IMG/VR virus record: IMGVR_UViG_3300047550_001893
Span: 1 to 27,177 of that record
Length of the DNA: 27,177 bases
DNA from: a virus
Reading direction: 5' to 3' (one strand)
Part shown: positions 6,055 through 20,970 of the stretch, in pieces
How the letters are laid out: every line of letters starts with the position of its first letter
Numbering within the stretch: position 1 is the first letter of the stretch
Program-made: the position numbers and the translations under genes
The notes under the pieces: model-generated
The model's database searches: none
Told to the model about the DNA's origin: nothing
What the model saw: the letters and a program-made list of their open reading frames with translations, nothing else

Positions 6055-6283
6055 AGAGGTGTTATCCAAGGCCACCCGCATCAAGCGAACGCCAAGCTGG
6101 TGCGACAGGCTGCCGGATGATCTGAGGCAGGAGCTCCTGGCAATCCGTGACGAGTTTCAAGCTGGCCAGATGGGCGACATGGCCATGGGCGAGCTTGCAC
6201 GTGGAATCATTGCGTCGATGCAGGACCGTGGGCACTCAATGCCCAAGCCCAGGCAGGTGGTGCTATGGCTCGGCGGGCGCTGA
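6029..6283 (+). CDS. Hypothetical small HTH-like protein
   Basis: 84 residues, mostly helical, with a core PSWCDRLPDDLRQELLAIRDEFQAG and a C-terminal segment GIIASMQDRGHSMPKPRQVVLWL whose spacing resembles a helix-turn-helix ending in a recognition helix. Small basic proteins of this type in phages can be DNA-binding or packaging related. It overlaps the genes on both sides (26 and 19 bases), indicating translational coupling with the metallophosphoesterase downstream. No definite family was recognised. Confidence 0.72.
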   Translation: MAKRLSLREEVLSKATRIKRTPSWCDRLPDDLRQELLAIRDEFQAGQMGDMAMGELARGIIASMQDRGHSMPKPRQVVLWLGGR

Positions 6284-7446
6284 AAACCGAGGTCGTGGCC
6301 AAGGCTGCGGCCGAGAAAGGGCTCACCATTGAGGAGGTGACCAAGCGGGAGACGCCTGACGGCGTCGAGGCCCGTAGCGTCTCGGCACGCATCCGCACCG
6401 TGGAGGATCTGCTGCGGCACATCGAGGCGGACATGAGCCGGTTTGAGGTGGCGACGAGTGAGGCCACGAAATGGGAAGGGCTCACCGCTGACCGTGACAC
6501 TGGCGAGCCGGTGGTGACAGAACTGCACCGTGTGCACGTGAGGCTACGTCCCAAGGCCGGGCCGGGCATTGCCGAGTGCGTTGAGGCGATGATCGCTGCG
6601 GCCACCAAGGAACTGCGACGGCCAGCGATTAAGTCGCACGGCAAGCCGAAGCCAGGGCTGTGGCAGGTGCTGGTGGTTTCAGATACCCACTTCGGCAACT
6701 ACTCATGGAACGAGACGACCGGAGCGGACTGGGATCTCAGCATCGCCGAGCGTGTCGTGCGTGATGCTGCCGGCGAACTCCTGGCAGTGGGCAACACACA
6801 CAGACCGGCACGCCGCACCGTCGCCTTTCTTGGTGACCTTTTCCACTACGACCGGGCAGAGCGTGCTGAGACGTCGAGCGGCACCCTGCTCGAGCGGGAC
6901 GGGCGGCTGCAGAAGATGTTGCAGGTGGGCACCGAAACGCTGCTCGGCATCGTGGAGGCGTCAGCCGAGACGGTGCCCACTGATGTGCTGCTCGTGCACG
7001 GCAACCACGACGAGACGCTGTCGTGGGCTTTCCACCGGCTGCTGCTTGAGCGATTTCGCCACGACAAGCGAATCACAGTGGACGACCGCTACACGGGGCG
7101 GAAATACCTCTCGCACGGGAGGAACCTGTTGGGCTTCGCACACGGCCACAAGGCAAAGAAGCGATTGCCGCAGTTGATGGCGATTGAGGCGGCCCAGGAG
7201 TGGGCGGCGTGCCCGTACCGGGAGTACCACACCGGGCACTACCACTCGACGGCGGCTGAGTGGTCACGGCCAATCGAGACTATCGACGGCGTGCTCGTGC
7301 GGACCGCACCATCGCTGTGCGTCGCAGACGACTGGGCAGCGTCGATGGGTTTTCTGAACGCTAGACAGGCGATGGAGACTCACCTCTATGCGTTCGACGG
7401 CGGGCTCACCGCCACGCATGTCTCGGGACCAAAGAGAAGCGAATGA
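6265..7446 (+). CDS. Calcineurin-like metallophosphoesterase
   Basis: 393 residues. The metallophosphoesterase motifs are in order: D-x-H in VVSDTHFGN (D140, H142), GDLFHYD (D191), GNHDE (N247, H248), and GHYHS (H325, H327), with an additional AHGHK before the last. These bind two metal ions and cleave phosphoesters. An N-terminal segment of about 120 residues precedes the catalytic core and contains a helical, possibly DNA-contacting region. Related phage enzymes are often annotated as DNA repair exonuclease-like, but substrate is not evident here. It overlaps the next gene by 4 bases. Confidence 0.9.
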   Translation: MARRALKTEVVAKAAAEKGLTIEEVTKRETPDGVEARSVSARIRTVEDLLRHIEADMSRFEVATSEATKWEGLTADRDTGEPVVTELHRVHVRLRPKAGPGIAECVEAMIAAATKELRRPAIKSHGKPKPGLWQVLVVSDTHFGNYSWNETTGADWDLSIAERVVRDAAGELLAVGNTHRPARRTVAFLGDLFHYDRAERAETSSGTLLERDGRLQKMLQVGTETLLGIVEASAETVPTDVLLVHGNHDETLSWAFHRLLLERFRHDKRITVDDRYTGRKYLSHGRNLLGFAHGHKAKKRLPQLMAIEAAQEWAACPYREYHTGHYHSTAAEWSRPIETIDGVLVRTAPSLCVADDWAASMGFLNARQAMETHLYAFDGGLTATHVSGPKRSE

Positions 7447-8168: not shown

Positions 8169-9134
8169 TCACGCTGCGGGCCTATCGCCTGGCGAGTCAT
8201 CGGCTGCAGGCGGCGACTGCCGCTGCGGGCCAGGGCCGAGGTCGAGCGGAGGAAGGTAGTCGAGGGCGGACTCCACGCCCGTGATCCGTTCGTCGTAGTA
8301 GTGCATCTCAGCCATTTCCTCGCTGGCATGGCCCAACTGCTTCTTCGCCGAGGCCCCGGCGGCTTTCATGTAGGAGGCCGTGCTTTTCCTGATGGAATGA
8401 AACGGGTGGTATTGCACACCTGCCACCCGGCACAGCACCCGAAGGCTGCCATAGGCCGACATGATGTGCCTGGTGTCTGTCCAGGGCCACACAAGCTCGC
8501 CTGCGGCCCCTTGCTGCGGGGCCATCATTCTGGCCAGGCCGGGGCTGATCTGGCGTGTAATCGTCTCCCTGTGCCCCTTGCGGGTGGCCGCCAGGAATGT
8601 GAGCGTCCGCCGCTCCAAATCCACCTCGCCCCAGCGGATGGCCAGGATGGCACCTATCCGCTCGCCCGTTTCGTACATGGCGGCCAGTTTCGTCGGCCAA
8701 TACCAGCACGCCGGCACCCGGCCCACCATGCCCTTTCGGTGCCGAGCCGCTTCAATCAGCGTCTGGAGATCCTGGTGGGTGTAGGCCACCGGGCGAGGCT
8801 TGGGCACTAGTGGACGACGGTAGTCAGGGAACTCGAGCAGGTCGCCATTTGACCGCTTCATTCGTTTCTTCGCACACCAGTTCCAGATGGTCCGCAGTTG
8901 GGCCGAGTCTTTCGCCACGCTCGCCGGGCTGATCTTGCCCTGGCGGTGGTTGTGCTGGGTGGCCCGGTCCCGCAGGAACTTGGACACCACCAGATCATCC
9001 AGGTCGTCGATCGTCGGCTCTCTGCCGAGGAAGTCGCGGAACCTGTCCAGTGTGTGGCCGTAGAGCTCGACACTCCTGGCAGAAAGATTCTTCAAATGGG
9101 CAATCCGGTCCACGAGCAGTTCACGCAGCAACAT
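8169..9134 (-). CDS. int: Tyrosine recombinase, phage integrase
   Basis: 321 residues from ATG at 9134, chosen because GGAGGAC lies just upstream on the - strand. The N-terminal core-binding domain (about 1-100; LSARSVELYGHTLDRFRDFLG) is followed by the catalytic domain with R159 (ETGERIG), K186 (TRKGH), H246-x-x-R249 (FHSIRKS), H269 (LGHAS) and nucleophile Y279 or Y280 (MHYYDER). It would integrate the phage at attP/attB in the host chromosome. It lacks the added alpha-helical domain typical of integron IntI enzymes. It is the only gene on the - strand and is flanked on both sides by phage genes, so attP should be close by. Confidence 0.93.
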   Translation of the reverse strand: MLLRELLVDRIAHLKNLSARSVELYGHTLDRFRDFLGREPTIDDLDDLVVSKFLRDRATQHNHRQGKISPASVAKDSAQLRTIWNWCAKKRMKRSNGDLLEFPDYRRPLVPKPRPVAYTHQDLQTLIEAARHRKGMVGRVPACWYWPTKLAAMYETGERIGAILAIRWGEVDLERRTLTFLAATRKGHRETITRQISPGLARMMAPQQGAAGELVWPWTDTRHIMSAYGSLRVLCRVAGVQYHPFHSIRKSTASYMKAAGASAKKQLGHASEEMAEMHYYDERITGVESALDYLPPLDLGPGPQRQSPPAADDSPGDRPAA

Positions 9135-9371
9135 CTGACGTCCTCCACGAAAGCCTCCTTGCGGCAGCCTGGCGGCCTCCTTCGACAGCCAGGTCCGTGC
9201 CTCGTTTGGGACCGATCGTAGCGGACTGTACAAGCGTATACATCCCACCCCGTCCGCTAACACAATCGGGCCAATCGGGCCGCTCGGTACTGTACAGAGT
9301 TTCCAGTGCCAAGGGAAACGCGGCTGTTTGCTTTGCACGGATCGGACGATACGATTGGAGGGATGATCGCA
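9135..9371. promoter_or_regulatory. Divergent control region between integrase and excisionase-like gene
   Basis: About 237 bases without a gene. It contains two copies of ACTGTACA (9225-9232 and 9289-9296; the second sits in the perfect 8-bp palindrome CTGTACAG at 9290-9297), a CGTATACAT element (9235-9243), a tandem AATCGGGCC direct repeat (about 9264-9281), and TGCACGGATCG (9334-9344). The last two words are repeated downstream of the excisionase-like gene. A candidate promoter for the rightward gene is listed separately. The repeats fit binding sites for integrase, excisionase or a repressor, and an attP core could lie here. Confidence 0.5.
9328..9355 (+). promoter_or_regulatory. Candidate promoter of the excisionase-like gene
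   Basis: TTGCTT (9328-9333), 16-base spacer, TACGAT (9350-9355). The spacer holds TGCACGGATCG, an 11-base word repeated at 9784-9794, so a repressor bound there would block this promoter. Transcription would begin near 9362, only about ten bases before the ATG. Confidence 0.4.
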
Positions 9372-9713
9372 ATGGCCAACCCGTTCGCGGGCTATATGAC
9401 CGTTCGGCAGGTGATGCAGGAAATTGGGGCTCGCGCCCCGAGCACCGTCACCCGCCTCGCTTACGACGAGGACAAGCCGCGTCCGGAGGGGAAGCGACTG
9501 GCTGGCACGCTGATTCCAGGCCACGGCTGGATGATCCAGCGAAAGAGCGTGGCCAAGTTCCTTGAGGAGGAATCCTCCAGGCCGGCTGGCGTTGGCTTCC
9601 CTCGCGGCCGGGACCGCAGCGGCCAGGACGAGGATGTAGTGGCTGAGCCGCCCAAGAAGAGCAGGCGGGCTGCAAAGCCTGCCCGACCCGCCAAGAAGGC
9701 GAACGGCGGCTAG
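9372..9713 (+). CDS. Excisionase-like helix-turn-helix protein
   Basis: 113 residues from ATG 9372, which has GGAGG about 11 bases upstream; an ATG at 9363 is in frame but only two bases from that site. The N-terminal domain, YMTVRQVMQEIG.....STVTRL, then a basic wing and GWMIQRKSVAKFLEE (about residues 6-62), has the layout of winged-HTH excisionase/MerR-type domains. The C-terminal tail is Lys/Arg/Pro/Ala-rich and probably disordered, contacting DNA non-specifically. Divergent placement beside the integrase supports a recombination directionality or control role; a repressor function is possible. Confidence 0.7.
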   Translation: MANPFAGYMTVRQVMQEIGARAPSTVTRLAYDEDKPRPEGKRLAGTLIPGHGWMIQRKSVAKFLEEESSRPAGVGFPRGRDRSGQDEDVVAEPPKKSRRAAKPARPAKKANGG

Positions 9714-9965
9714 AGAATTCTTCGAAAGTTCGTTTTGCCCGACAGATGCCACTATTGCATATGCAACGACCGCCGTATACATATGCACGGATCGTGCGAA
9801 ACGGGGCGGCTAGCACGGTTGCACACTGCAATCCCCGCGTGCTCCGCACGCTGCAAAACAAGCCCTTTTCTCTCGTCGATGGTTTTTGTTGACTTCCCCC
9901 GCCGAGGAGTTACGATGCCCCACCCAACAGGCAGTGAACACACGTACACCTATGAGGTGACGCAG
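9714..9965. promoter_or_regulatory. Palindrome-rich control region of the early rightward operon
   Basis: About 250 bases with no convincing gene. It contains the perfect 12-bp palindrome TTGCATATGCAA (9755-9766), a related TTGCA-CAC-TGCAA (9819-9831), GCACG-GAT-CGTGC (9785-9797), the word CGTATACAT (9774-9782) and the word TGCACGGATCG (9784-9794). The last two words also occur upstream of the excisionase-like gene. These look like operator sites upstream of the promoter at 9889-9916. Confidence 0.5.
9889..9916 (+). promoter_or_regulatory. Putative early rightward promoter
   Basis: TTGACT (9889-9894), 16-base spacer, TACGAT (9911-9916), a good sigma-70-like match preceded by T-rich sequence. 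Transcription would start near 9923 and run into the ATPase/replication genes. A start there favours ATG 9966 over ATG 9915 for the first gene. Confidence 0.55.
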
Positions 9966-10309: not shown

Positions 10310-11206
10310 ATGGTTCACATTCGCAAGGCACGACGCAGTGCCACAAAGTTTCGGGGCCTGCTGACTGGCCCCAGCGGCAGCGGAAAAACGTGGGGCGGCC
10401 TGCTGATCGCCAAGGGGCTTGGAGGCCGGTGTGTCGTGATCGACACAGAGGAGGGTTCGTCGGATCTCTACGACGGACTCCATGAGTTCGACGTCGTTGA
10501 CCTGAAGCCGCCGTTCACTCCTGAGCGGTACATCGAGGCGATTCAGGCGTGCGAGGCCGCTGGCTATGAGGTCATCGTCATCGACAGCGTGACGCACTGC
10601 TGGAGCGGCAAGGGCGGCTGCCTGGAGCTCGTGGACGAGATTGCGAAGGCGAAGTTCCGTGGGAACACGTGGTCGGCGTTTTCCGAGATCACGCCACGCT
10701 GGCGTGCGTTCATCGACGCCGTCCTGCGTTCGTCCTGCCACGTGATTTGCACGGGCCGCAGCAAGACCGAGACGGCCCAGGTGGACGACGGTGGCCGGAA
10801 GAAGGTCACGAAGTTGGGGATGAAGCTCGAGGCCCGTGATGGCCTTGAATACGAGTTCACCTGCGTGCTCGACCTCGTGCACGACGGGCACTACGCCACC
10901 GTGTCGAAGGACCGCACCGGCCTGTTCTCAGGCGATCCGAAGCCGATCACCGAGGAAACAGGCCGGCGTCTCGCCGAGTGGCTCGCAGGTGCCACGCCGG
11001 TTGACGACGAGGCGACAGTCACAAAGGCCCGCGACGCCATCCGCCAAGCCGAGTCGGTCGAGCGGCTCGACAAGGTGATGGCCACCGTCGCCCAGCGTGT
11101 CACGGAGCGGCGGATCACGGAGAGGACGGCCTGCGACCTCGGCAGCGAGGCGGCGGCAAAGCGGACAGCACTGGCGATCGAGAACCCCACGGCCGTGACG
11201 GCCTAG
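10310..11206 (+). CDS. Phage RecA-fold ATPase, Sak4/AAA_24-like
   Basis: 298 residues. Walker A GPSGSGKT is at residues 20-27, IDTEEGSSDLY follows a strand at about 42-54, and Walker B VIVIDS is at 88-93. This order fits the phage AAA_24/Sak4 group of single-strand annealing-type recombination ATPases. A Glu/Arg-rich helical C-terminal part (about 220-298) resembles C-terminal domains found on other phage recombination proteins. The downstream neighbour looks like a single-stranded DNA-binding protein, a pairing known for Sak4. Role: homologous recombination or replication restart. Confidence 0.82.
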   Translation: MVHIRKARRSATKFRGLLTGPSGSGKTWGGLLIAKGLGGRCVVIDTEEGSSDLYDGLHEFDVVDLKPPFTPERYIEAIQACEAAGYEVIVIDSVTHCWSGKGGCLELVDEIAKAKFRGNTWSAFSEITPRWRAFIDAVLRSSCHVICTGRSKTETAQVDDGGRKKVTKLGMKLEARDGLEYEFTCVLDLVHDGHYATVSKDRTGLFSGDPKPITEETGRRLAEWLAGATPVDDEATVTKARDAIRQAESVERLDKVMATVAQRVTERRITERTACDLGSEAAAKRTALAIENPTAVTA

Positions 11207-11220
11207 AGAGGACGGGAGAG

Positions 11221-11694
11221 ATGGATTTCCGCATCGACAGCAGCGAGCAGACCACGGCGACGCCGACAGAGCGGCAGATTGTGCCAGTCGGCATCAGGAC
11301 GATGGAGATCAAGCACGCCGAGGAAACCACGAGCAGGTGGAAGACTTCGGACGACAACCCGCACGGGCATGTCCTTGCCCTGCGTTTGGCTGACATGGAC
11401 GGCGACTTTCGGTTCGTGTTCGACGACATCGCACAGCACGACACGCCGAGGGCACGTGCATTGATTGCGGCCCTAGGCCGGCAGCCATCTGGCGGCGTCG
11501 TCTCGCTGACACCTGCGAACCTTATCGGCCAGGTCATCACGGTCGAGGTCACGCACTACACGGCGAAATCGACGGGCAACACGTCGGCTCGTGTTCAGCG
11601 GTACGTGCCGGCTGAAAGCCGGGCACAGAAGCAGCAGGCCACGCCACGCACTGCACCGCCGCAGGAGGTGGCGGCTGGCGACATCCCTTTCTGA
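11221..11694 (+). CDS. SSB-like / DUF669-like DNA-binding protein
   Basis: 157 residues, 14 bases after the ATPase gene with GGGAGAG as ribosome site. A beta-rich core (GIRTMEIKHAEE near 24-35, LALRLADMDGDFRFVFDDI near 51-69, GQVITVEVTHYT near 101-112) is compatible with an OB-type fold. The C-terminus ends in a flexible Gln/Pro/Ala linker and GDIPF, close to the DDIPF tip by which bacterial SSB proteins bind partners. Together with the Sak4-like ATPase it forms a recombination pair. The DUF669 label is from memory. Confidence 0.72.
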   Translation: MDFRIDSSEQTTATPTERQIVPVGIRTMEIKHAEETTSRWKTSDDNPHGHVLALRLADMDGDFRFVFDDIAQHDTPRARALIAALGRQPSGGVVSLTPANLIGQVITVEVTHYTAKSTGNTSARVQRYVPAESRAQKQQATPRTAPPQEVAAGDIPF

Positions 11695-11903
11695 TGGACG
11701 TCGTGCGAACGACTGACGACTACCACGCCGCAGTTGAGGCACGGAGCAAGTTGACCTGGCAAATGATGCAGGGCCGCATCACGCGACAGGAAATGCACGA
11801 GTTGGATGACGTGTTCTATGGCAAGTGGGACGCCACGATCGCAGCCGCACAACGTGCTGTGAGTGTGCCGCCGCTACCACCAGGCAGGTACTACGGGGAC
11901 TGA
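11694..11903 (+). CDS. Small hypothetical protein
   Basis: 69 residues, starting at the last base of the SSB-like gene (TGATG). It is mostly helical (YHAAVEARSKLTWQMMQGRITRQEMHELDDVFYGKW) with a Pro-rich end. The pattern 'MMQGRITRQEMHELDD' resembles short L-x-G-x-I-x2-E-E hairpins. No family was recognised. It is co-transcribed with the recombination genes. Confidence 0.65.
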   Translation: MDVVRTTDDYHAAVEARSKLTWQMMQGRITRQEMHELDDVFYGKWDATIAAAQRAVSVPPLPPGRYYGD

Positions 11904-12088: not shown

Positions 12089-12693
12089 GCGACTACTGGC
12101 CTGACTTAGATTCGCTTCGCCTTGACCTCCCGCTATTCACCACAGCAACCGCTGCAAAGCAGGCGAGAACTTTTCATGAGCGTGACGAGGCGCAGGCCAA
12201 CGTGCTTGCAACTCTTAGGGCCGGGCGCGGGATTGACAAAAAGAGCTACGAGGCAAGCGTAAAGAACGGAAGCAGACTCGCTCCTGTTATTGAGCAACTA
12301 CGCAACGCCCACGGATTTGCAATCTCTGGCGACGGAACTTTCGGCAATCCGTACCGCATGGATGATGCGAGGCAGTCGCCGACGCTTGCAAGAGTTACGC
12401 CAGAAATGAAGGCGGCGTACTACGCAACTCCGCATTGGAACTCGGTTCGGCTGTCGAGGCTTTCGCGTGACTTGCACAGGTGCGTTCTCTGCTGGGATGC
12501 GCACAACTTGCGGTGCCATCACGTGTCATACGCAAACCTGTTCAGTGAGCCGCTCGTTGACCTAATGACGCTGTGCGACGGATGCCATACGCGAGTGCAT
12601 CAAGATTGCCGCCTCAAGTTCCCGAGCGGCGTTGATGTTCGTTGTGCCCACTGGCTTGGCTGGAAAGGTTTTGAAACATGGCTTCTCCCGTAA
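12085..12693 (+). CDS. HTH-HNH endonuclease
   Basis: 202 residues. The C-terminal half carries a zinc-ribbon HNH pattern: C133-x2-C136, H145-H146 (RCHHVSYANL), a Glu-x3-DL segment, then C164-x2-C167-H168 and a final His. The N-terminal half (LATLRAGRGIDKKSYEASVKNGSRL...IEQLRNAHGFAI) looks like a winged helix-turn-helix that may target the nuclease. HNH enzymes in phages nick or cut DNA in packaging or act as homing nucleases. It overlaps the methyltransferase gene by 16 bases. Codon use is noticeably less GC-rich than flanking genes, suggesting recent acquisition with the next gene. Confidence 0.85.
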   Translation: MSDYWPDLDSLRLDLPLFTTATAAKQARTFHERDEAQANVLATLRAGRGIDKKSYEASVKNGSRLAPVIEQLRNAHGFAISGDGTFGNPYRMDDARQSPTLARVTPEMKAAYYATPHWNSVRLSRLSRDLHRCVLCWDAHNLRCHHVSYANLFSEPLVDLMTLCDGCHTRVHQDCRLKFPSGVDVRCAHWLGWKGFETWLLP

Positions 12694-13700
12694 CCACGCT
12701 GGCACGAATCAGCGAGGCTCGCAAGGCGCTGGCAGCCGCAAAGACGCTCGACGACGTTTTGCAAATCCGAGACCAGGCGGAGGCGCTGAGGGTTTACGTG
12801 AAGGCTGCGTCAGACAGCCTGGATGCGGCCAACGCGGCGGCTGAAATCAAGCTTCGGGCTGAGCGAAAAGCCGGTGCGATGCTGGCGGCGATGGAGGACT
12901 CTCGAGGAAGGAACCAGCACACCAAAGAGGATGGTAACACGACGTTACCATCCTCACTCAACGACCTTGGAATCAAAAAAAGCCAGTCTTCTCGGTGGCA
13001 GCAAGAGGCCTGCGTTCCAGACCATCAGTTTGAGGAATATCTAACTAGCTGCGTTCAGCGAGGCAGCGAGATTACCCAGGCCGGTCTTCTGAAGATAGCT
13101 GCAAAGTCCGCCGTCGAATCGCCTTTTGAATCCCTTGACGATTACGAGTCAGGAGCAGTGTCAAACCTGCACGACCTGATCATCCGTGGTTTGAAGTACG
13201 GCTGCATATACGCTGACCCGCCGTGGGCCTACAGCAACAAGGCTACGCGGGCCAACGTTGAGGACACGTACAAGTCCACGATGACAGTGGACGAGATCTG
13301 CAACGAGCCGGTGTCGCAGCTGGCCGCTGACGATTGCCACCTTCACCTGTGGACTACGAACGCGTTTTTGTTTGATGCTCGCCGCGTCATGGAAGCCTGG
13401 GGTTTTGAGTACAAGTCATGTTTCGTGTGGGTAAAGCCGCAAATGGGGATCGGCAACTACTGGCGAGTTTCCCACGAGTTCATGCTGCTTGGCATTCGCG
13501 GCAAGCCAGAGTTTCGCAGGCGTGACTGCATGTCGTGGGGCCAGTTTGACCGCACGGCACATAGCAAGAAGCCAAAAGACGTTCGCCGCCTTGTCGAGTC
13601 AGTAAGTCATGGTCCGTTCCTTGAGCTTTACGGTCGAGAGGCGGTCGACAACTGGATGGTCTACGGAAACGAAGTTGCGAAGGCTCCATTGTTTTCTTGA
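12678..13700 (+). CDS. MT-A70-type DNA adenine methyltransferase with N-terminal helical domain
   Basis: 340 residues. DPPW catalytic motif at residues 180-183 (CIYADPPWAYSN) and the following pattern (HLHLWTTNAFL, AWGFEYKSCFVWVKPQMGIGNYWRVSHEFMLLG) are those of MT-A70-family N6-adenine methyltransferases. The N-terminal part (ARISEARKALAAAKTLDDVLQIRDQAEALRVY, AEIKLRAERKAGAML, LGIKKSQSSRWQ) is a helical region often fused to phage MT-A70 enzymes. It probably methylates phage DNA to evade restriction. A perfect 12-bp inverted repeat lies within the variable linker (12927-12955). Less GC-rich than neighbours, like the HNH gene it overlaps. Confidence 0.88.
   Translation: MASPVTTLARISEARKALAAAKTLDDVLQIRDQAEALRVYVKAASDSLDAANAAAEIKLRAERKAGAMLAAMEDSRGRNQHTKEDGNTTLPSSLNDLGIKKSQSSRWQQEACVPDHQFEEYLTSCVQRGSEITQAGLLKIAAKSAVESPFESLDDYESGAVSNLHDLIIRGLKYGCIYADPPWAYSNKATRANVEDTYKSTMTVDEICNEPVSQLAADDCHLHLWTTNAFLFDARRVMEAWGFEYKSCFVWVKPQMGIGNYWRVSHEFMLLGIRGKPEFRRRDCMSWGQFDRTAHSKKPKDVRRLVESVSHGPFLELYGREAVDNWMVYGNEVAKAPLFS
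12927..12955. repeat. Perfect 12-bp inverted repeat inside the methyltransferase gene
   Basis: GAGGATGGTAAC (12927-12938), loop ACGAC, GTTACCATCCTC (12944-12955). It falls in the linker between the N-terminal helical region and the LGIKKSQSSRWQ segment, where the protein should tolerate change. It could be an RNA hairpin, a protein-binding site or an insertion scar. Confidence 0.8.
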
Positions 13701-16661: not shown

Positions 16662-16704
16662 GGTGTTTCGCAGGCACCTCGAGGAGAAGCGGAGGCTGGC
16701 GTGA
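16396..16704 (+). CDS. Small helix-turn-helix protein
   Basis: 102 residues from GTG 16396, or 101 from ATG 16399. FRQMWTSGMEVWRMAVKLGMSSTHVGTTAKRLGLPRR (about 15-51) is a classic HTH of the W..G.....A..LG.S...V...A.RLGLP.R type. A hydrophilic Gln/Asp linker follows and then a helical LRLAPEIQARADEVFRRHLEEKRRLA tail. Proteins with this architecture are common small phage regulators. It overlaps the next gene (GTGA). The gene at 21850-22221 has a related N-terminal pattern. Confidence 0.72.
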   Translation: MMFSAKQKLDEAAFRQMWTSGMEVWRMAVKLGMSSTHVGTTAKRLGLPRRWPGGAREPQHDAAPGSDEDVASLDAGLRLAPEIQARADEVFRRHLEEKRRLA

Positions 16705-16910
16705 GCGACATCGTGGAGCGTCTGCGGGCAATGGCGGGGCCTCACCAGCCCAACGTCTGCACCGAGGCGGCGGATGAGATCGAGAGGCTGCGACTCACCG
16801 ACGCGGAGCGCGAGGCATTGATTGTGGCATCCATAGAGTTGCAGGCGCTGGCGATGTGCGAGACGAACCACTCCGACGCCCTGCGGAGACTTCTGGCACG
16901 GCTGTCGTGA
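16701..16910 (+). CDS. Ead/Ea22-like small phage protein
   Basis: 69 residues from GTG 16701, overlapping the preceding stop. MSDIVERLRAMAGPH.....TEAADEIERLRLTDAERE is the short phage pattern 'DIVERLR...EAADEIERLR'. The remainder is helical (ALIVASIELQALAMCETNHSDALRRLLARL). Related proteins are widespread in phage early regions, function unknown. Its TGA (16908-16910) overlaps the first base of the first attC-like hairpin. Confidence 0.68.
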   Translation: MSDIVERLRAMAGPHQPNVCTEAADEIERLRLTDAEREALIVASIELQALAMCETNHSDALRRLLARLS

Positions 16911-16954
16911 GAACTCCAGCGATCAGCGGCCCGTCCGCTGCATCGCGTGGTTCT
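16910..16954 (+). other. attC-like recombination site 1
   Basis: A 45-base imperfect hairpin. AGAAC (16910-16914) mirrors GTTCT (16950-16954). Inside, GAT-CAGCGG on the 5' arm pairs with CCGCTG-C-ATC on the 3' arm, leaving an unpaired C, with a T beside the loop in the position of a second extra base. This is the R-L-L-R layout of integron attC sites with extrahelical bases on one strand. The R box (GTTCTGT) deviates from GTTRRRY. It is shorter than usual attC sites. Confidence 0.65.
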
Positions 16955-16976
16955 GTGAGCGTAGAGTGGAGCGACG

Positions 16977-17330
16977 ATGGACATTGAATCAGTGTTTCTC
17001 AGGGCGATGTTTCAGGCCACCGACAACTGGATTCTGCGAGGCGGGCCTGAGCCGAACGACAAGGCACTCTTGGCGCTCGCCCCTGAGTTGGCCGGATTGA
17101 TCGCCGCAGCAAACGAGCAGGAAGACGACGAGGATGACGGCATGGAGTGGACTCCAGTTAGCGAACGGCCGCCGGATGATCTTGAGCAATGCCTAGTGGC
17201 ACGCGGAGAAGACGTTGGCATTGCGTGGTGGCACAGCGGGCCACAGAAGTTCATCCACGAAGACATCGACAACGCCTGGATTCCGACACACTGGATGCCT
17301 CTCCAGGCCCCGCCAAGGGACGACAAGTAG
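16977..17330 (+). CDS. DUF551-like protein (gene of attC cassette 1)
   Basis: 117 residues, ribosome site GTGGAG. The N-terminal half is helical (DIESVFLRAMFQATDNWILRGG, LAPELAGLIAAANEQ) with an acidic linker. The C-terminal half EWTPVSERPPDDLEQCLV......THWMPLQAPP (about 56-113) matches the pattern of DUF551 (W..V.E.LP....VLV....... THWMPLP..P). The gene is enclosed by attC-like sites 1 and 2: its start is 22 bases past site 1 and its stop 4 bases before site 2, as in an integron gene cassette. Function unknown. Confidence 0.75.
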   Translation: MDIESVFLRAMFQATDNWILRGGPEPNDKALLALAPELAGLIAAANEQEDDEDDGMEWTPVSERPPDDLEQCLVARGEDVGIAWWHSGPQKFIHEDIDNAWIPTHWMPLQAPPRDDK

Positions 17331-17334
17331 CCAC

Positions 17335-17421
17335 AGAACACGGAAGATCAGCAGCGGCGAGCCACGGACTATGAGCAAACCAACCGACGATAACGAGCCG
17401 TCTGCTGCATCGCTTGGTTCT
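17335..17421 (+). other. attC-like recombination site 2
   Basis: 87 bases, a normal attC length. AGAAC (17335-17339) mirrors GTTCT (17417-17421). The 5' arm GAT-CAGCAG-CGGC (17346-17358) pairs with the 3' arm GCCG-T-CTGCTG-C-ATC (17397-17411), leaving exactly two extrahelical bases (T and C) on the same arm. The central part is unpaired. The site begins 4 bases after the stop of the DUF551-like gene. A methionine codon at 17371 lies inside it but is not used as a start in this interpretation. Confidence 0.75.
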
Positions 17422-17445
17422 GCAAAAACACGCGCTGATGGTGTA

Positions 17446-17479
17446 CGGGTTGCACACCCGCTTTTCCAGGCGGGAGGAG
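17446..17479 (+). promoter_or_regulatory. Two mutually exclusive leader hairpins over a ribosome site
   Basis: CGGGT (17446-17450) pairs with ACCCG (17456-17460) around TGCAC, followed by CTTTT. Alternatively CCCGC (17457-17461) pairs with GCGGG (17470-17474) around TTTTCCAG. The two stems share CCCG and cannot coexist. The second stem covers the start of GGGAGGAG, the ribosome site of the Mom-like gene. It could be a translational switch or protein-binding control. Confidence 0.45.
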
Positions 17480-17487
17480 ACGGTTCG

Positions 17488-17991
17488 ATGCCGATCTCAG
17501 CGCTTTGTCTGACGGTTGAAAGAATCCCAGTTGAAATGGCGTGCGACCTCAATCGGCGCTGGCACAGTCGCCTTCCAAAGATTGAGAAGTCGAACGTCGT
17601 TCGGAACGCCGACTACGCTTGCTACGGCGCGACGTTCGGCGGGGTTGCTTACGCTGCGGCTATTTGGTCTTCGCCTGTCGCTCGCCTATTGAACGATGGA
17701 AAAACTCTTGAACTTCGACGGCTGGCAATCGCTCCAGACGCACCGCGAAACACGGCGAGCCGGATGCTTGCGGTCATGCGTCGGATTGTCGGGCGAGAGA
17801 TGCCGCACATTGAGCGGCTCGTCAGTTACCAAGACACCGAAGTCCACACAGGAGGCATCTATCGCGCAAGCGGGTGGCGCGCTGCGCGGATTGCCAAGGG
17901 GCATGAATGGGGTTGCCCGTCGCGGCCAAGGGACGCCGTGCAGTCCGCAGCCCACAAGATTCGGTGGGAGACGCCTGCGAAACGGAAGTAG
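17488..17991 (+). CDS. Mom-like GNAT-fold protein (gene of attC cassette 2)
   Basis: 167 residues from ATG 17488, chosen for GGGAGGAG at 17472-17479; an ATG at 17371 is in frame but lies within attC site 2. Core: YGATFGGVAYAAAIWSSPVARLL, ELRRLAIAPDAPRNTASRMLAVMRRIV, then IERLVSYQDTEVHTGGIYRASGWRAA. The order GVA..W..P..R / LRRLAI.....N..S..L / LVSY.D...H.G.IY.A..W is that of Mom-family and XF1762-like GNAT superfamily proteins. Phage Mu Mom turns adenine into a modified base, protecting against restriction. The C-terminus is basic. The gene is enclosed by attC-like sites 2 and 3. It is somewhat less GC-rich than flanking genes. Confidence 0.75.
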   Translation: MPISALCLTVERIPVEMACDLNRRWHSRLPKIEKSNVVRNADYACYGATFGGVAYAAAIWSSPVARLLNDGKTLELRRLAIAPDAPRNTASRMLAVMRRIVGREMPHIERLVSYQDTEVHTGGIYRASGWRAARIAKGHEWGCPSRPRDAVQSAAHKIRWETPAKRK

Positions 17992-17992
17992 C

Positions 17993-18048
17993 AGAACGCT
18001 GAAGCTGAGCGGCGGCCCCTGGCCGTCCGCTCCAGCGCCTGGTTCGCC
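17993..18048 (+). other. attC-like recombination site 3
   Basis: About 56 bases. AGAAC (17993-17997) is mirrored by GTTC (18042-18045). The 5' arm GCTG-AGCGG-CGGCC (18004-18017) pairs with the 3' arm GGCCG-T-CCGCT-C-CAGC (18021-18036), leaving extrahelical T and C at the same relative positions as in site 2. It begins one base after the stop of the Mom-like gene. The R box is GTTCGCC. Confidence 0.72.
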
Positions 18049-18053
18049 GACGC

Positions 18054-18067
18054 CCGGCCGGGGCCGG
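18054..18067 (+). terminator. Possible terminator hairpin after cassette 2
   Basis: CCGGCC-GG-GGCCGG can fold into a compact GC hairpin, with CTTTTC about seven bases further. The two-base loop would open to four. It would end transcripts from the cassettes before the promoter at 18122. Confidence 0.35.
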
Positions 18068-18100
18068 AACCCTGCTTTTCCTCGGGAAATACGGGGGTCG

Positions 18101-18149
18101 AAAAAAATCTTTTAGCGGGGCTTGCCTTCCGTCCGACGTTAGGTATACT
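18101..18149 (+). promoter_or_regulatory. Promoter with A/T-rich upstream element
   Basis: TTGCCT (18122-18127), 16-base spacer, TATACT (18144-18149). An A-tract/T-tract (18101-18114) sits at the position of an UP element. Transcription would start near 18156. This is the clearest promoter in the right half and would serve the genes from 18192 onward. Confidence 0.6.
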
Positions 18150-18191
18150 TAGGGCATGACGCGGAACGACAACAACACGAAAGGGAAGACG

Positions 18192-18389
18192 ATGAACGCC
18201 ACGAAGACTTTTGTTGAGCAGGCCACCGAGGACTTCCGGCTTGCTGGCCTTCGGCTGATGAAGGCCGAGGCAAATCTTGCCAAGGGTTACACGCTGCATC
18301 GGCTGGAGGAAAAGGTCGCTGCCCAGCAGGCGTGCGACCGAGCCAAGAAGCGGCTCGCAAGGGAGATCGAACGTAGCACCAACGGCTGA
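18192..18389 (+). CDS. Small helical hypothetical protein
   Basis: 65 residues from ATG 18192, preceded by AGGGA. ATG 18156 gives 77 residues, but it is at the predicted transcription start of the promoter above, which leaves no leader. The protein is highly charged and helical (KTFVEQATEDFRLAGLRLMKAEANLAKGYTLHRLEEKVAAQQACDRAKKRLAREIER), probably a coiled coil. No family was recognised. First gene after the cassette region. Confidence 0.62.
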   Translation: MNATKTFVEQATEDFRLAGLRLMKAEANLAKGYTLHRLEEKVAAQQACDRAKKRLAREIERSTNG

Positions 18390-18413
18390 CAAACCTTTGG
18401 CCGACAGGCAAAC

Positions 18414-18460
18414 GCGGGATGGAACCCGCCTTGTGTGGTCCCGCGATAACTCCACCAAGG
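18414..18460 (+). other. Two adjacent leader hairpins
   Basis: GCGGG-ATGGAA-CCCGC (18414-18429) is followed by CCTTGTGTGG (18429-18438) pairing with CCACCAAGG (18452-18460) with one bulge. The 95-base gap between the genes at 18389 and 18485 is largely folded. It could be a structured leader or an RNA of its own; no terminator-like T-tract follows. Confidence 0.4.
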
Positions 18461-18484
18461 CTATCGAACAACAGAGCGAACGCC

Positions 18485-18721
18485 ATGCCACGCATTACGC
18501 GAATCCACGTCAATCAGCACGTCATCCGTCGCAACGCCAAGACCGGCGAGCAGGAGCCGGTGTTGACGGTCAAGGCTGGGGGCGGCAATACCTACGCCCA
18601 CTCCGTGCAGATTCTCGGCCCAAGCACGGTGGTCTATTCACCGTGCAAGCCGCTGTCGTGCGGCGCGAGGGTCTGGATCGAAACAAAGGCCGAGGTCGTG
18701 ATCGACCCGGAAGCTCAATGA
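18485..18721 (+). CDS. Conserved hypothetical phage protein
   Basis: 78 residues from ATG 18485. MPRITRIHVNQHVIRRNAKTGEQEPVLTVK..GNTYA.SVQILGPSTVVYSPCKPLSCGARVWIETKAEVVI is a compact beta-rich protein whose composition I recognise from other phage genomes, but no function is known. A frame extending upstream to 18419 would run through the leader hairpins and is unlikely. ATGA overlap with the next gene. Confidence 0.75.
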   Translation: MPRITRIHVNQHVIRRNAKTGEQEPVLTVKAGGGNTYAHSVQILGPSTVVYSPCKPLSCGARVWIETKAEVVIDPEAQ

Positions 18722-18936
18722 ACGACCGCGTGACCTTCCGCCTTGGCTCGCTCGCGGGGCCTCTGGCGGCGTACTGCGAGCGGCACGGCACCACGCCGAG
18801 CGAGGCGATCCGGCTGGCGTTGTCGAGGCTGCTTCGTGTGGAGGCACCGGAGATGACGCCGGGCAACCCGGACATCGGCGAGCAAGCAGAGGCAGGAGCG
18901 AAGGCACGGTGGAAGAAACGGAAGGGCCGCAAGTAG
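18718..18936 (+). CDS. Ribbon-helix-helix-like DNA-binding protein
   Basis: 72 residues from ATG 18718, overlapping the upstream stop. NDRVTFRLGSLAGPLAAYCERHGTTPSEAIRLALSRLLRVE has the ribbon (RVTFRLG) and two helices (PLAAYCERHG / TPSEAIRLALSRLL) of the RHH fold, as in Arc/NikA-type regulators. The C-terminal tail is basic (KARWKKRKGRK). Likely a transcriptional regulator or small DNA-binding accessory protein. Confidence 0.72.
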   Translation: MNDRVTFRLGSLAGPLAAYCERHGTTPSEAIRLALSRLLRVEAPEMTPGNPDIGEQAEAGAKARWKKRKGRK

Positions 18937-19094
18937 TCGGCGAACCAGTAATTCTCCGGCCCTGCATAACGCCGATTATCCATCGCCATCGCCTGATAAC
19001 ACGCCGCACGCCTGCGTTTCGCCAGCGACATCCGGCCATGCCAGGAATTACGCGGCGACGATAATCGCTTGACACTGCCGCCACCATCGGCGGC
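18937..19094. other. Intergenic region before rusA
   Basis: About 158 bases without a convincing gene. GATTATC near 18972 and GATAATC near 19060 form a distant inverted pair. TTGACA at 19069-19074 has no matching -10. GCCGCC (19078-19083) and GGCGGC (19090-19095) form a hairpin against the rusA start codon and may damp its translation. Confidence 0.4.
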
Positions 19095-19496
19095 ATGGCG
19101 ATCACGTTCACGGTTCCAGGCGATCCGGTGCCGCAGCCTCGTCCACGTGTCTCGACTCGTGGCGGGTTTGCTCGTGCCTACGTGCCTGCCCAGCACCCGG
19201 TGCACGCCTATCGCAAGGCGGTGATGGCCGCAGCCAAGGCTGCAGGGGCGACTGTCAGCGACGACGCCGTCAGCGTCGAGATCACGTTTCTGTTCGACCG
19301 GCCCAAGTCGCACCGCACGAAGAAGGGGCTGAGCAAGAACGCCCCGGCGTTGCCGCCACCCGACGTCGATAACCTCGCAAAAGCGTGCCTGGACGCCCTG
19401 ACGTGCGTTTGTTGGCACGACGACCGCCAGGTGCAGCGGCTGACCGCCACCAAGAGTTACGCCGCCGAGAGTGCCACCATCGTGAGGGTGACATGA
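19095..19496 (+). CDS. rusA: RusA-family Holliday junction resolvase
   Basis: 133 residues, typical RusA length. FTVPGDPVPQPRPRVS at the start, and the catalytic region PPPDVDNLAKACLDAL..VCWHDDRQV with the conserved Asp residues (D of PDVDN, D of CLDAL and DD before RQV) that bind Mg2+ in RusA. It cleaves four-way junctions made by recombination or replication. ATG 19095 lies at the edge of a GC hairpin and lacks a strong ribosome site. Its end overlaps the next gene by 4 bases. Confidence 0.92.
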   Translation: MAITFTVPGDPVPQPRPRVSTRGGFARAYVPAQHPVHAYRKAVMAAAKAAGATVSDDAVSVEITFLFDRPKSHRTKKGLSKNAPALPPPDVDNLAKACLDALTCVCWHDDRQVQRLTATKSYAAESATIVRVT

Positions 19497-20080
19497 ACGA
19501 CCGTCCCGATATGCAACTCGGCGGGCAACTCGAGCAGGACAAGATCGTCCTGGCCCTGCTCAACGGACGCCGGGACGGGTTCTTCATCGACATCGGATGC
19601 GGGACGCCGCTGATCAACTCCAACACGTACCTGCTGGAGAAGCACTTCGGCTGGCGTGGCATCGGCATCGACGTCACGAACCAGCCCGACGCCATCTCGT
19701 GGGCTGACCGGCCCAACACCCAGCACATCGTGGCCGACGCCACGACGTTCGACTACGCCACGCTCGTGCCTGACGGCACGGTGGTGGATTTCCTGTCGCT
19801 CGACCTTGAGCCGCCGGCCCTCACCTACGACGTGCTGCGAATGCTGCCGCTCGACTCGTGGCGTCCGCATGTCATCGCCTATGAGGCTGACGCCTACCGG
19901 GACGATGAGGCCGCCATGCGTGAGCACCAGGCGTCCGAGTACCTGCGAGCGATGGGCTACTCGCTGCGGGCTCGGCTGTATCCACGAGTGCTTCAGCTGC
20001 TCACAGACGACGTCGGCTGCCAAGACCACATCTACATGCGTGCTGACATCCTGCGACTTGAAACCCGATGGGGTAGATGA
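19493..20080 (+). CDS. FkbM-like SAM-dependent methyltransferase
   Basis: 195 residues from ATG 19493 (ATGA overlap with rusA). QLEQDKIVLALLNGRRDGFFIDIGCGTPLINSNTYLLEKHFGWRGIGID has the SAM-binding motif (DIGCG) and the sNT..LE..FGW.G.GID pattern of FkbM-type methyltransferases. A second acidic segment VVDFLSLDLE follows. FkbM relatives O-methylate sugars or small molecules. It is translationally coupled to a radical SAM protein and a glycosyltransferase. Confidence 0.82.
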   Translation: MNDRPDMQLGGQLEQDKIVLALLNGRRDGFFIDIGCGTPLINSNTYLLEKHFGWRGIGIDVTNQPDAISWADRPNTQHIVADATTFDYATLVPDGTVVDFLSLDLEPPALTYDVLRMLPLDSWRPHVIAYEADAYRDDEAAMREHQASEYLRAMGYSLRARLYPRVLQLLTDDVGCQDHIYMRADILRLETRWGR

Positions 20081-20970
20081 TGCCGCTACATTCCGCCGTG
20101 TGGTTCACCACGATGGCCTGCAACTACCACTGCCATTACTGCTGGGAAGTGCAGGCCCAGGATCGTGGCGAGTTCAAGCCGGCTCCGTGGGACAAGACTG
20201 CCGACCGCTGGGTAGCGGCCTGGAATCGGCTGCGGCCCAACGTGCTCGACGTCACGGGTGGCGAGCCATTCCTGTTGCCCTGGCTCGTCGACTTCTACCA
20301 GCGGCTGGACCCAGCCATTCGGTGCGGGATGACAACGAACATCTCGCACGACCTCACGCAGTTCGTGCAGAAGATTCCAGCGGAGCGGTTCATCAACATC
20401 ACGTGCAGCTGGCACCCCAGCGACAACGGCACGAAGACGCATCCCAACAACCTTTACCTATTCACCGGACGGCTCTTGATGCTCAAAGAGCGTGGCTATC
20501 CGGTGCAGGTGAACTACGTGGCGTGGCCCGAGCAGCAGTGGTTGATCGCCGACTTCAAGAAATGGTTTGAGGATCACGGTGTCCGGTTTCACGTCGATCC
20601 CTACAGCGGCATCGCCTACTACCCGTTCACGGCAACGGACGCCGAAGAAGAGAACGTCCGCAAGTACACAGGGCCGGATCGTGTGCAACACGAGTGGACG
20701 CAGAAATACGGAAAGAATTACCGAGTGGACTGCTCCGGTGGCATGCACCATATCAACGTGCAGCCAGACGGCTCGGCGTGGCGGTGCATCCTCGACCGCC
20801 AACTGATGATCAACCCGCTGGGCAACATCCTCGACGAAGACTTCGCCCTGCTCGAGCAGCCACGCACGTGTGATGAGCACTGGCGGTGCCCCGGCTGCGA
20901 CCGGGACAAAGTGCGAGTGAACTTCGTAGGCGAGCAGCCGTATCCGGGTCTGCCAGTGGTGGAGGTCTGA
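20077..20970 (+). CDS. Radical SAM protein with C-terminal cysteine cluster
   Basis: 297 residues, ATG overlapping the previous stop. ACNYHCHYCWE has the C15-x3-C19-x2-C22 cluster that binds the 4Fe-4S used to cleave SAM, and DVTGGEPFL has the GGE motif. The C-terminal part has five more cysteines (DCSGG, WRC, RTCDEHWRCPGC) like SPASM or twitch auxiliary clusters. The substrate cannot be read from the sequence. It lies between the FkbM-like methyltransferase and a glycosyltransferase, so these likely act on one product. Confidence 0.88.
   Translation: MMPLHSAVWFTTMACNYHCHYCWEVQAQDRGEFKPAPWDKTADRWVAAWNRLRPNVLDVTGGEPFLLPWLVDFYQRLDPAIRCGMTTNISHDLTQFVQKIPAERFINITCSWHPSDNGTKTHPNNLYLFTGRLLMLKERGYPVQVNYVAWPEQQWLIADFKKWFEDHGVRFHVDPYSGIAYYPFTATDAEEENVRKYTGPDRVQHEWTQKYGKNYRVDCSGGMHHINVQPDGSAWRCILDRQLMINPLGNILDEDFALLEQPRTCDEHWRCPGCDRDKVRVNFVGEQPYPGLPVVEV

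Follow-up and report, generated by a model that had tools for sequence, protein, structure and literature searches.

How does a phage come to carry a run of attC-like hairpins at the ends of its genes when it encodes no integron integrase? The question is raised by a 27,177-nt stretch of DNA from a bacterial virus (positions 1 to 27,177 of IMG/VR record IMGVR_UViG_3300047550_001893; this whole stretch is called the window below), for which the original prediction proposed attC sites delimiting two single-gene cassettes. Our analysis indicates that these integron-type cassettes are real and that they form part of a wider system that includes an attI site and lacks IntI.

Hairpins and cassettes in the window

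The array and its right flank contain the following features.

16701-16910, plus strand: small ORF (MSDIVERLR...) at the left array edge; its stop TGA overlaps site 1
16910-16955, plus strand: attC site 1, short loop, AAC at 16912-16914 (covariance model E 2.5e-15, partly circular because the site is a training sequence)
16977-17330, plus strand: cassette 1 gene, DUF551-like protein (PF04448, E 1.2e-4, barely past the curated cut-off)
17335-17422, plus strand: attC site 2, long loop, ATG start codon at 17371 (covariance model E 1.2e-15)
17371-17991, plus strand: cassette 2 gene, Mom-like DNA modification protein (PF25680, E 1.4e-14; phrog_1384, E 8.8e-20)
17993-18047, plus strand: attC site 3 (covariance model E 4.7e-19, partly circular for the same reason as site 1)
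18048-18942, plus strand: cassette 3, with three small ORFs (18156-18389, 18485-18721 and 18718-18936)
18941-19006, plus strand: attI-like site, AAC at 18943-18945, then CAGTAATTCTCCGGCCC..., with repeated ATAAC motifs; an attI when read on the minus strand
19095-19496, plus strand: RusA Holliday junction resolvase (PF05866, E 1.6e-25; phrog_140), a phage gene outside the array on its right flank

A covariance model that we built from 25 hairpins matched the plus strand at each of the three places where an imperfect hairpin had been predicted, and site 2, which was outside the training set, scored E 6e-6 with filters off. Matches on the opposite strand were weaker echoes of the same palindromes, and an Rfam search of the hairpins returned no matching family. 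The sites begin, as had been noticed, at or within five bases of stop codons: TGA at 16908-16910 overlaps site 1, while TAG at 17328-17330 and TAG at 17989-17991 lie 5 and 2 nt upstream of sites 2 and 3, respectively. All three have AAC/GTT ends as predicted, and their 3′ arms contain the additional T and C (the T of site 1 being in its loop); the 16-base pattern of the 3′ arm occurs with zero mismatches in the window only at these hairpins. Outcomes that the original prediction had named as counting against it included a lack of covariance hits and dispersed repeats away from gene ends; all three sites were matched by our own model, and their position at gene ends and in same-strand arrays rules out a reading as dispersed repeats.

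Folding as single-strand DNA, compared with shuffled sequences, gave z scores of -4.6 (site 1), -1.4 (site 2) and -3.0 (site 3), such that site 2, with its 40-base loop, is not significant by folding energy alone. Across the 25 sites of the model, two-sided pair changes were found in 25 cells versus 8.6 in shuffles, and the true structure paired 97% of cells versus 26-55% for slid structures. The window sites thus combine an imperfect hairpin, unpaired bases on one arm and a structure conserved across sites, as attC sites do. The AAC and GTT were invariant wherever scored, and the bases after GTT were mostly CTG or CGG. The R boxes accordingly read GTTC... and not the textbook GTTRRRY, a point against the integron reading; none of 183 sites from phages and only 9 of 95 from hosts had the full RYYYAAC/GTTRRRY consensus, and host attC sites beside intI deviate from it in the same way. 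Of 134 phage sites that were scored, 131 retain the T and C bulges; these bulges and the GTTC core are common to hosts and phages.

Both predicted single-gene units, DUF551-like and Mom-like, were confirmed, though the array is larger than proposed and includes a third unit (17993-18942) and the attI-like terminus. The Mom-like protein is 206 aa long if started at the ATG in the attC loop, with N-terminus MSKPTDDNEPSAASLGS. No attC of its own was found for the small ORF at 16701-16910, a homologue of which stands at the left edge of the array in phage locus L069 and is absent from the related L102. The ORFs of cassette 3 had no Pfam match. Both ends of this cassette are conserved in six phage loci (L056, L084, L089, L092, L206 and L207) and the middle gene differs in each phage, so that gene swapping also operates at a second level, within a single cassette. 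Phage proteins surround the window array, and 75 viral stretches carry its pattern (see below), making host contamination of a single contig unlikely.

Related phages, host integrons and the attI site

The arrays belong to a whole set of phages and are not an isolated pick-up. A phage contig found through its DUF551-like gene (L037) carries the same hairpins at the same location, flanked by the genes for a beta clamp and RusA and enclosing other genes; its DUF551-like relative likewise lies between attC sites. Scanning viral contigs for the hairpin pattern turned up 75 such stretches, and the covariance model recovered arrays of up to eight same-strand sites, mostly 300-600 bases apart. In one of them (L002), a Mom relative with 55% identity lies between two such attC sites. 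The array region had no match among 50,697 GenBank phage records. One array recurs in three contigs of 146 kb (L045, 468-1612), 205 kb (L062, 3108-4252) and 48 kb (L085, 5774-6918), which have no PF00589 integrase match and may represent either large phages or host contigs that carry a prophage.

When 84,980 genomes of bacteria and archaea were scanned for the pattern used on the viral contigs, 28 matches came up, with the hairpin present only in L113, a contig of a Planctomycetaceae genome with ordinary chromosomal genes. This contig encodes an integron integrase (TIGR02249, 443 bits; cut-off 265) adjoining two attC sites of this kind and a DUF551-type cassette in inverted orientation; a 134-nt stretch of this cassette is 92% identical to one carried by phage L072. 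Among the 72 genomes of this host family, 39 matched the attC covariance model and 27 had IntI over the cut-off, several with attC and IntI on one contig. The window hairpins are therefore members of an attC family common to chromosomal integrons of Planctomycetota, a taxon for which attC models exist (PMC8352920), and the dozens of related array-bearing phages probably infect Planctomycetota. The edge of one host contig (L198, G091:C23; 51-734) carries short attC sites of the phage type, their genes inverted, next to cassettes of canonical form; a prophage or a transfer of cassettes from phage may explain them.

The last cassette of the window ends at TAG 18934-18936, followed by TCGGCGAAC and then by a sequence resembling one found after the last cassette of L113 and at the intI 3′ end in other hosts. 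Host attI sites were first spotted by a motif seen in L113 and in phages, and a strict profile kept only the intI-adjacent ones. In nhmmer searches with host-only attI profiles, the window site was matched at E 8.6e-5 and at E 1.1e-4, the latter with the stricter profile (9 host attI sites adjoining intI), and the alignment agrees. The 14-site host profile matched 23 phage loci at E ≤ 0.1 and the 9-site profile matched 24 at E ≤ 0.2 (the window and 23 others); reversed phage sequence, searched as a control with the 14-site profile, gave a single match at E 4.1. At 23 of 23 phage loci, the side and strand of every attC relative to attI were as expected. A reciprocal scan with the phage attI pattern added 19 loci, and in 15 of them attC lies on the same strand, left of attI. 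Of the others, two start at or near attI and L209/L212 (one phage) keep a decayed half site; the latter were ruled out as an empty attI, as a half-decayed attC 5′ arm precedes their single gene. The window thus has an attI adjoining its array and, with at least two attC sites and no intI gene, is a CALIN as opposed to a complete integron.

Cassette exchange and the source of the integrase

Related phages had been suggested as the place to look for cassette breakpoints, and such phages are alike as far as attI, beyond which their arrays are unrelated. Loci L084 and L109 share 90.5% identity over 1.2 kb from attI onward and have zero common cassettes, and L069 and L102 are collinear on either side of differing arrays. 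Twelve cassette pairs have genes 77-99% identical and unrelated neighbours. In the seven closest pairs (92-99% identical in unrelated contexts), the match runs out at the next AAC or a few bases from it; the AAC is where an integrase would cut. The left ends of shared cassettes fall at or inside their own attC and are less sharp than the right ends. Comparison of related phages thus shows exchangeable gene cassettes, and the attC reading is strengthened on two sides, since the same hairpins form arrays beside true IntI in hosts and mark precise swap points in phages.

Other processes also left marks on the arrays. Hybrid attC sites and sites missing an arm occur (L042, L053 and L209), and the arrays are therefore shaped as well by ordinary homologous recombination from one hairpin to another. 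The DUF551 genes of L037 and the window are 89% identical over 246 nt yet have different hairpin types, and hairpins therefore do not always travel with their gene. Two cassettes (L083 8411 and L103 3704, array-strand coordinates) are 99% identical except that one attC lacks the loop, which suggests that short-loop attC sites arise through loop deletion. Locus L043 holds two tandem copies of a single cassette (11077-11717 on the reverse strand), joined through attI sequence, and the second copy begins with attI sequence instead of an attC hairpin.

As predicted, no integron-type IntI is visible in the window: its integrase (8169-9788, minus strand) had no TIGR02249 match and is of the ordinary phage kind, in keeping with the remark that it lacks IntI hallmarks. 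None of 50 array-bearing phage records had a TIGR02249 match over the cut-off, a result that supports, without proving, the absence of IntI from these phages because many or most of the records are fragments. Phages without an integron integrase therefore probably borrow the host enzyme to trade genes. Our data make it highly probable that the locus is a phage-borne attI with three attC-delimited cassettes and no intI, and that this platform uses host IntI in trans, recombination being inferred from the comparisons above. In a Planctomycetota cell, host IntI would bind the folded attC and the attI of the phage and could insert, remove or reorder cassettes in its genome. The bottom strand of an attC site carries unpaired bases on its 3′ arm; the plus strand of the window would be the bottom strand that host IntI binds.

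An alternative is that the hairpins and attI are relics of a single arrival from host integrons and that cassettes now move by homologous recombination of the Sak4/RusA type only. The hybrid attC sites fit such a history, the highly conserved leader GTTCTGTGAGCGTAGA could supply the homology, and the window encodes both a Sak4-like protein match and RusA. However, shared cassettes stop on the right at AAC, ahead of the hairpin homology, and both the bulges and the attI at the array end have been retained almost without exception (in 131/134 sites and 23/23 loci, respectively), and we therefore consider relics improbable. It is more doubtful still that cassette movement is due to the tyrosine integrase of the phage itself or to some other phage enzyme. 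An ordinary PF00589 integrase was found in 27 of 40 array-bearing records, the window included (RusA was found in 15 of 40), but the window enzyme is not of the integron type, the 50 records searched gave no TIGR02249 match over the cut-off, 13 of the 40 records had no PF00589 match (these may be fragments), and the attI and attC sites match those of IntI-bearing hosts. Cassette movement by host IntI in trans thus remains our preferred reading.

Orientation, translation and cargo of phage cassettes

Phage cassette genes run along the attC bottom-type strand (that with the 3′ arm bulges) in 135 of 145 intervals, whereas host cassette genes run against it, the canonical orientation, in 62 of 74. 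Counting clear calls only, the ratio of along to against was 42 to 0 in phages and 3 to 12 in hosts; these calls use codon statistics of the window phage and are weaker for hosts. In most phage intervals the gene's 3′ end hence does not adjoin its own attC, as it does in a canonical cassette. Since the cassette genes point towards attI, they would be transcribed with the phage operon and not from an attI-side promoter.

Where a long loop contains an open ATG, the 3′ arm is read in one fixed frame at 61 of 65 sites. This frame gives ...EPSxASAGS-like peptides ahead of the cassette's own sequence, the Mom gene included, and translation at such sites may begin in the attC loop and run in frame through the 3′ arm. 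We lean towards a fuller reading in which attI, with a pool of inverted cassettes specific to phages and moved by host integrase, makes up a phage organ whose attC-loop start adds a fixed-frame peptide and whose orientation limits exchange with hosts to occasional events such as that in L113. That the hairpins act in RNA instead, as translation leaders, terminators or mRNA processing sites unrelated to integrons, has almost no likelihood: they do lie on the coding strand with a loop start codon in fixed frame, but the same sites form arrays beside intI in hosts with oppositely oriented genes, attI stands at the array end and the exchanges are cassette-sized.

Integron parts in phages are already known: 17 CALINs were described from 10,705 genomes, the phages being unrelated, the attC sites of three virulent phages were shown to be recognised by IntI1, and gene orientation was described as typical in two of the phage CALINs (Qi et al. 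2023, PMC9892861). Like those, the arrays described here are attC arrays in phages without an integrase; unlike them, they occur in many related uncultured phages, keep an attI without intI, and show inverted genes, a translation start in the attC loop and swapped cassettes. The chromosomal integrons of Planctomycetota share homologous attC and attI sites and the GTTC core with the phages and differ in having intI, with attI at its 3′ end, and canonical gene orientation, of which the phages have neither intI nor that orientation. A group of integrons with an inverted integrase is known (PMC10500605). In the open-access literature searched, which was incomplete, we found neither attI platforms without intI in phages nor inverted cassette pools, and the present arrangement appears to be new. 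It suggests that phages maintain docking platforms that exploit host integrons, beyond accidental pick-up of cassettes, and that recombination sites may double as translation starts. The exchange of genes between integrons and phages thereby becomes testable, and the arrays offer a reservoir of cassettes on the phage side.

The phage cassette genes form 76 clusters, comprising one large small-protein family, DUF551-like and Mom genes, and adenine methyltransferase-like, HNH-like and phosphoesterase-like cargo, the last three assigned by eye from the sequences. The window gene resembles the Mom family of the phage Mu type in its PF25680 and phrog_1384 matches and differs in being an integron-type cassette with an attC-encoded N-terminus. 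With such platforms, phages may be able to change accessory genes rapidly, those for DNA modification among them, and Mom and adenine methyltransferase-like cargo could provide quickly changeable protection of phage DNA. Elsewhere in the window are genes for a DNA methyltransferase (12678-13700) and a DNA repair exonuclease (6265-7446), and an ORF at 20077-20970, with CxxxCxxC near its start, resembles a radical SAM enzyme, an unusual phage cargo.
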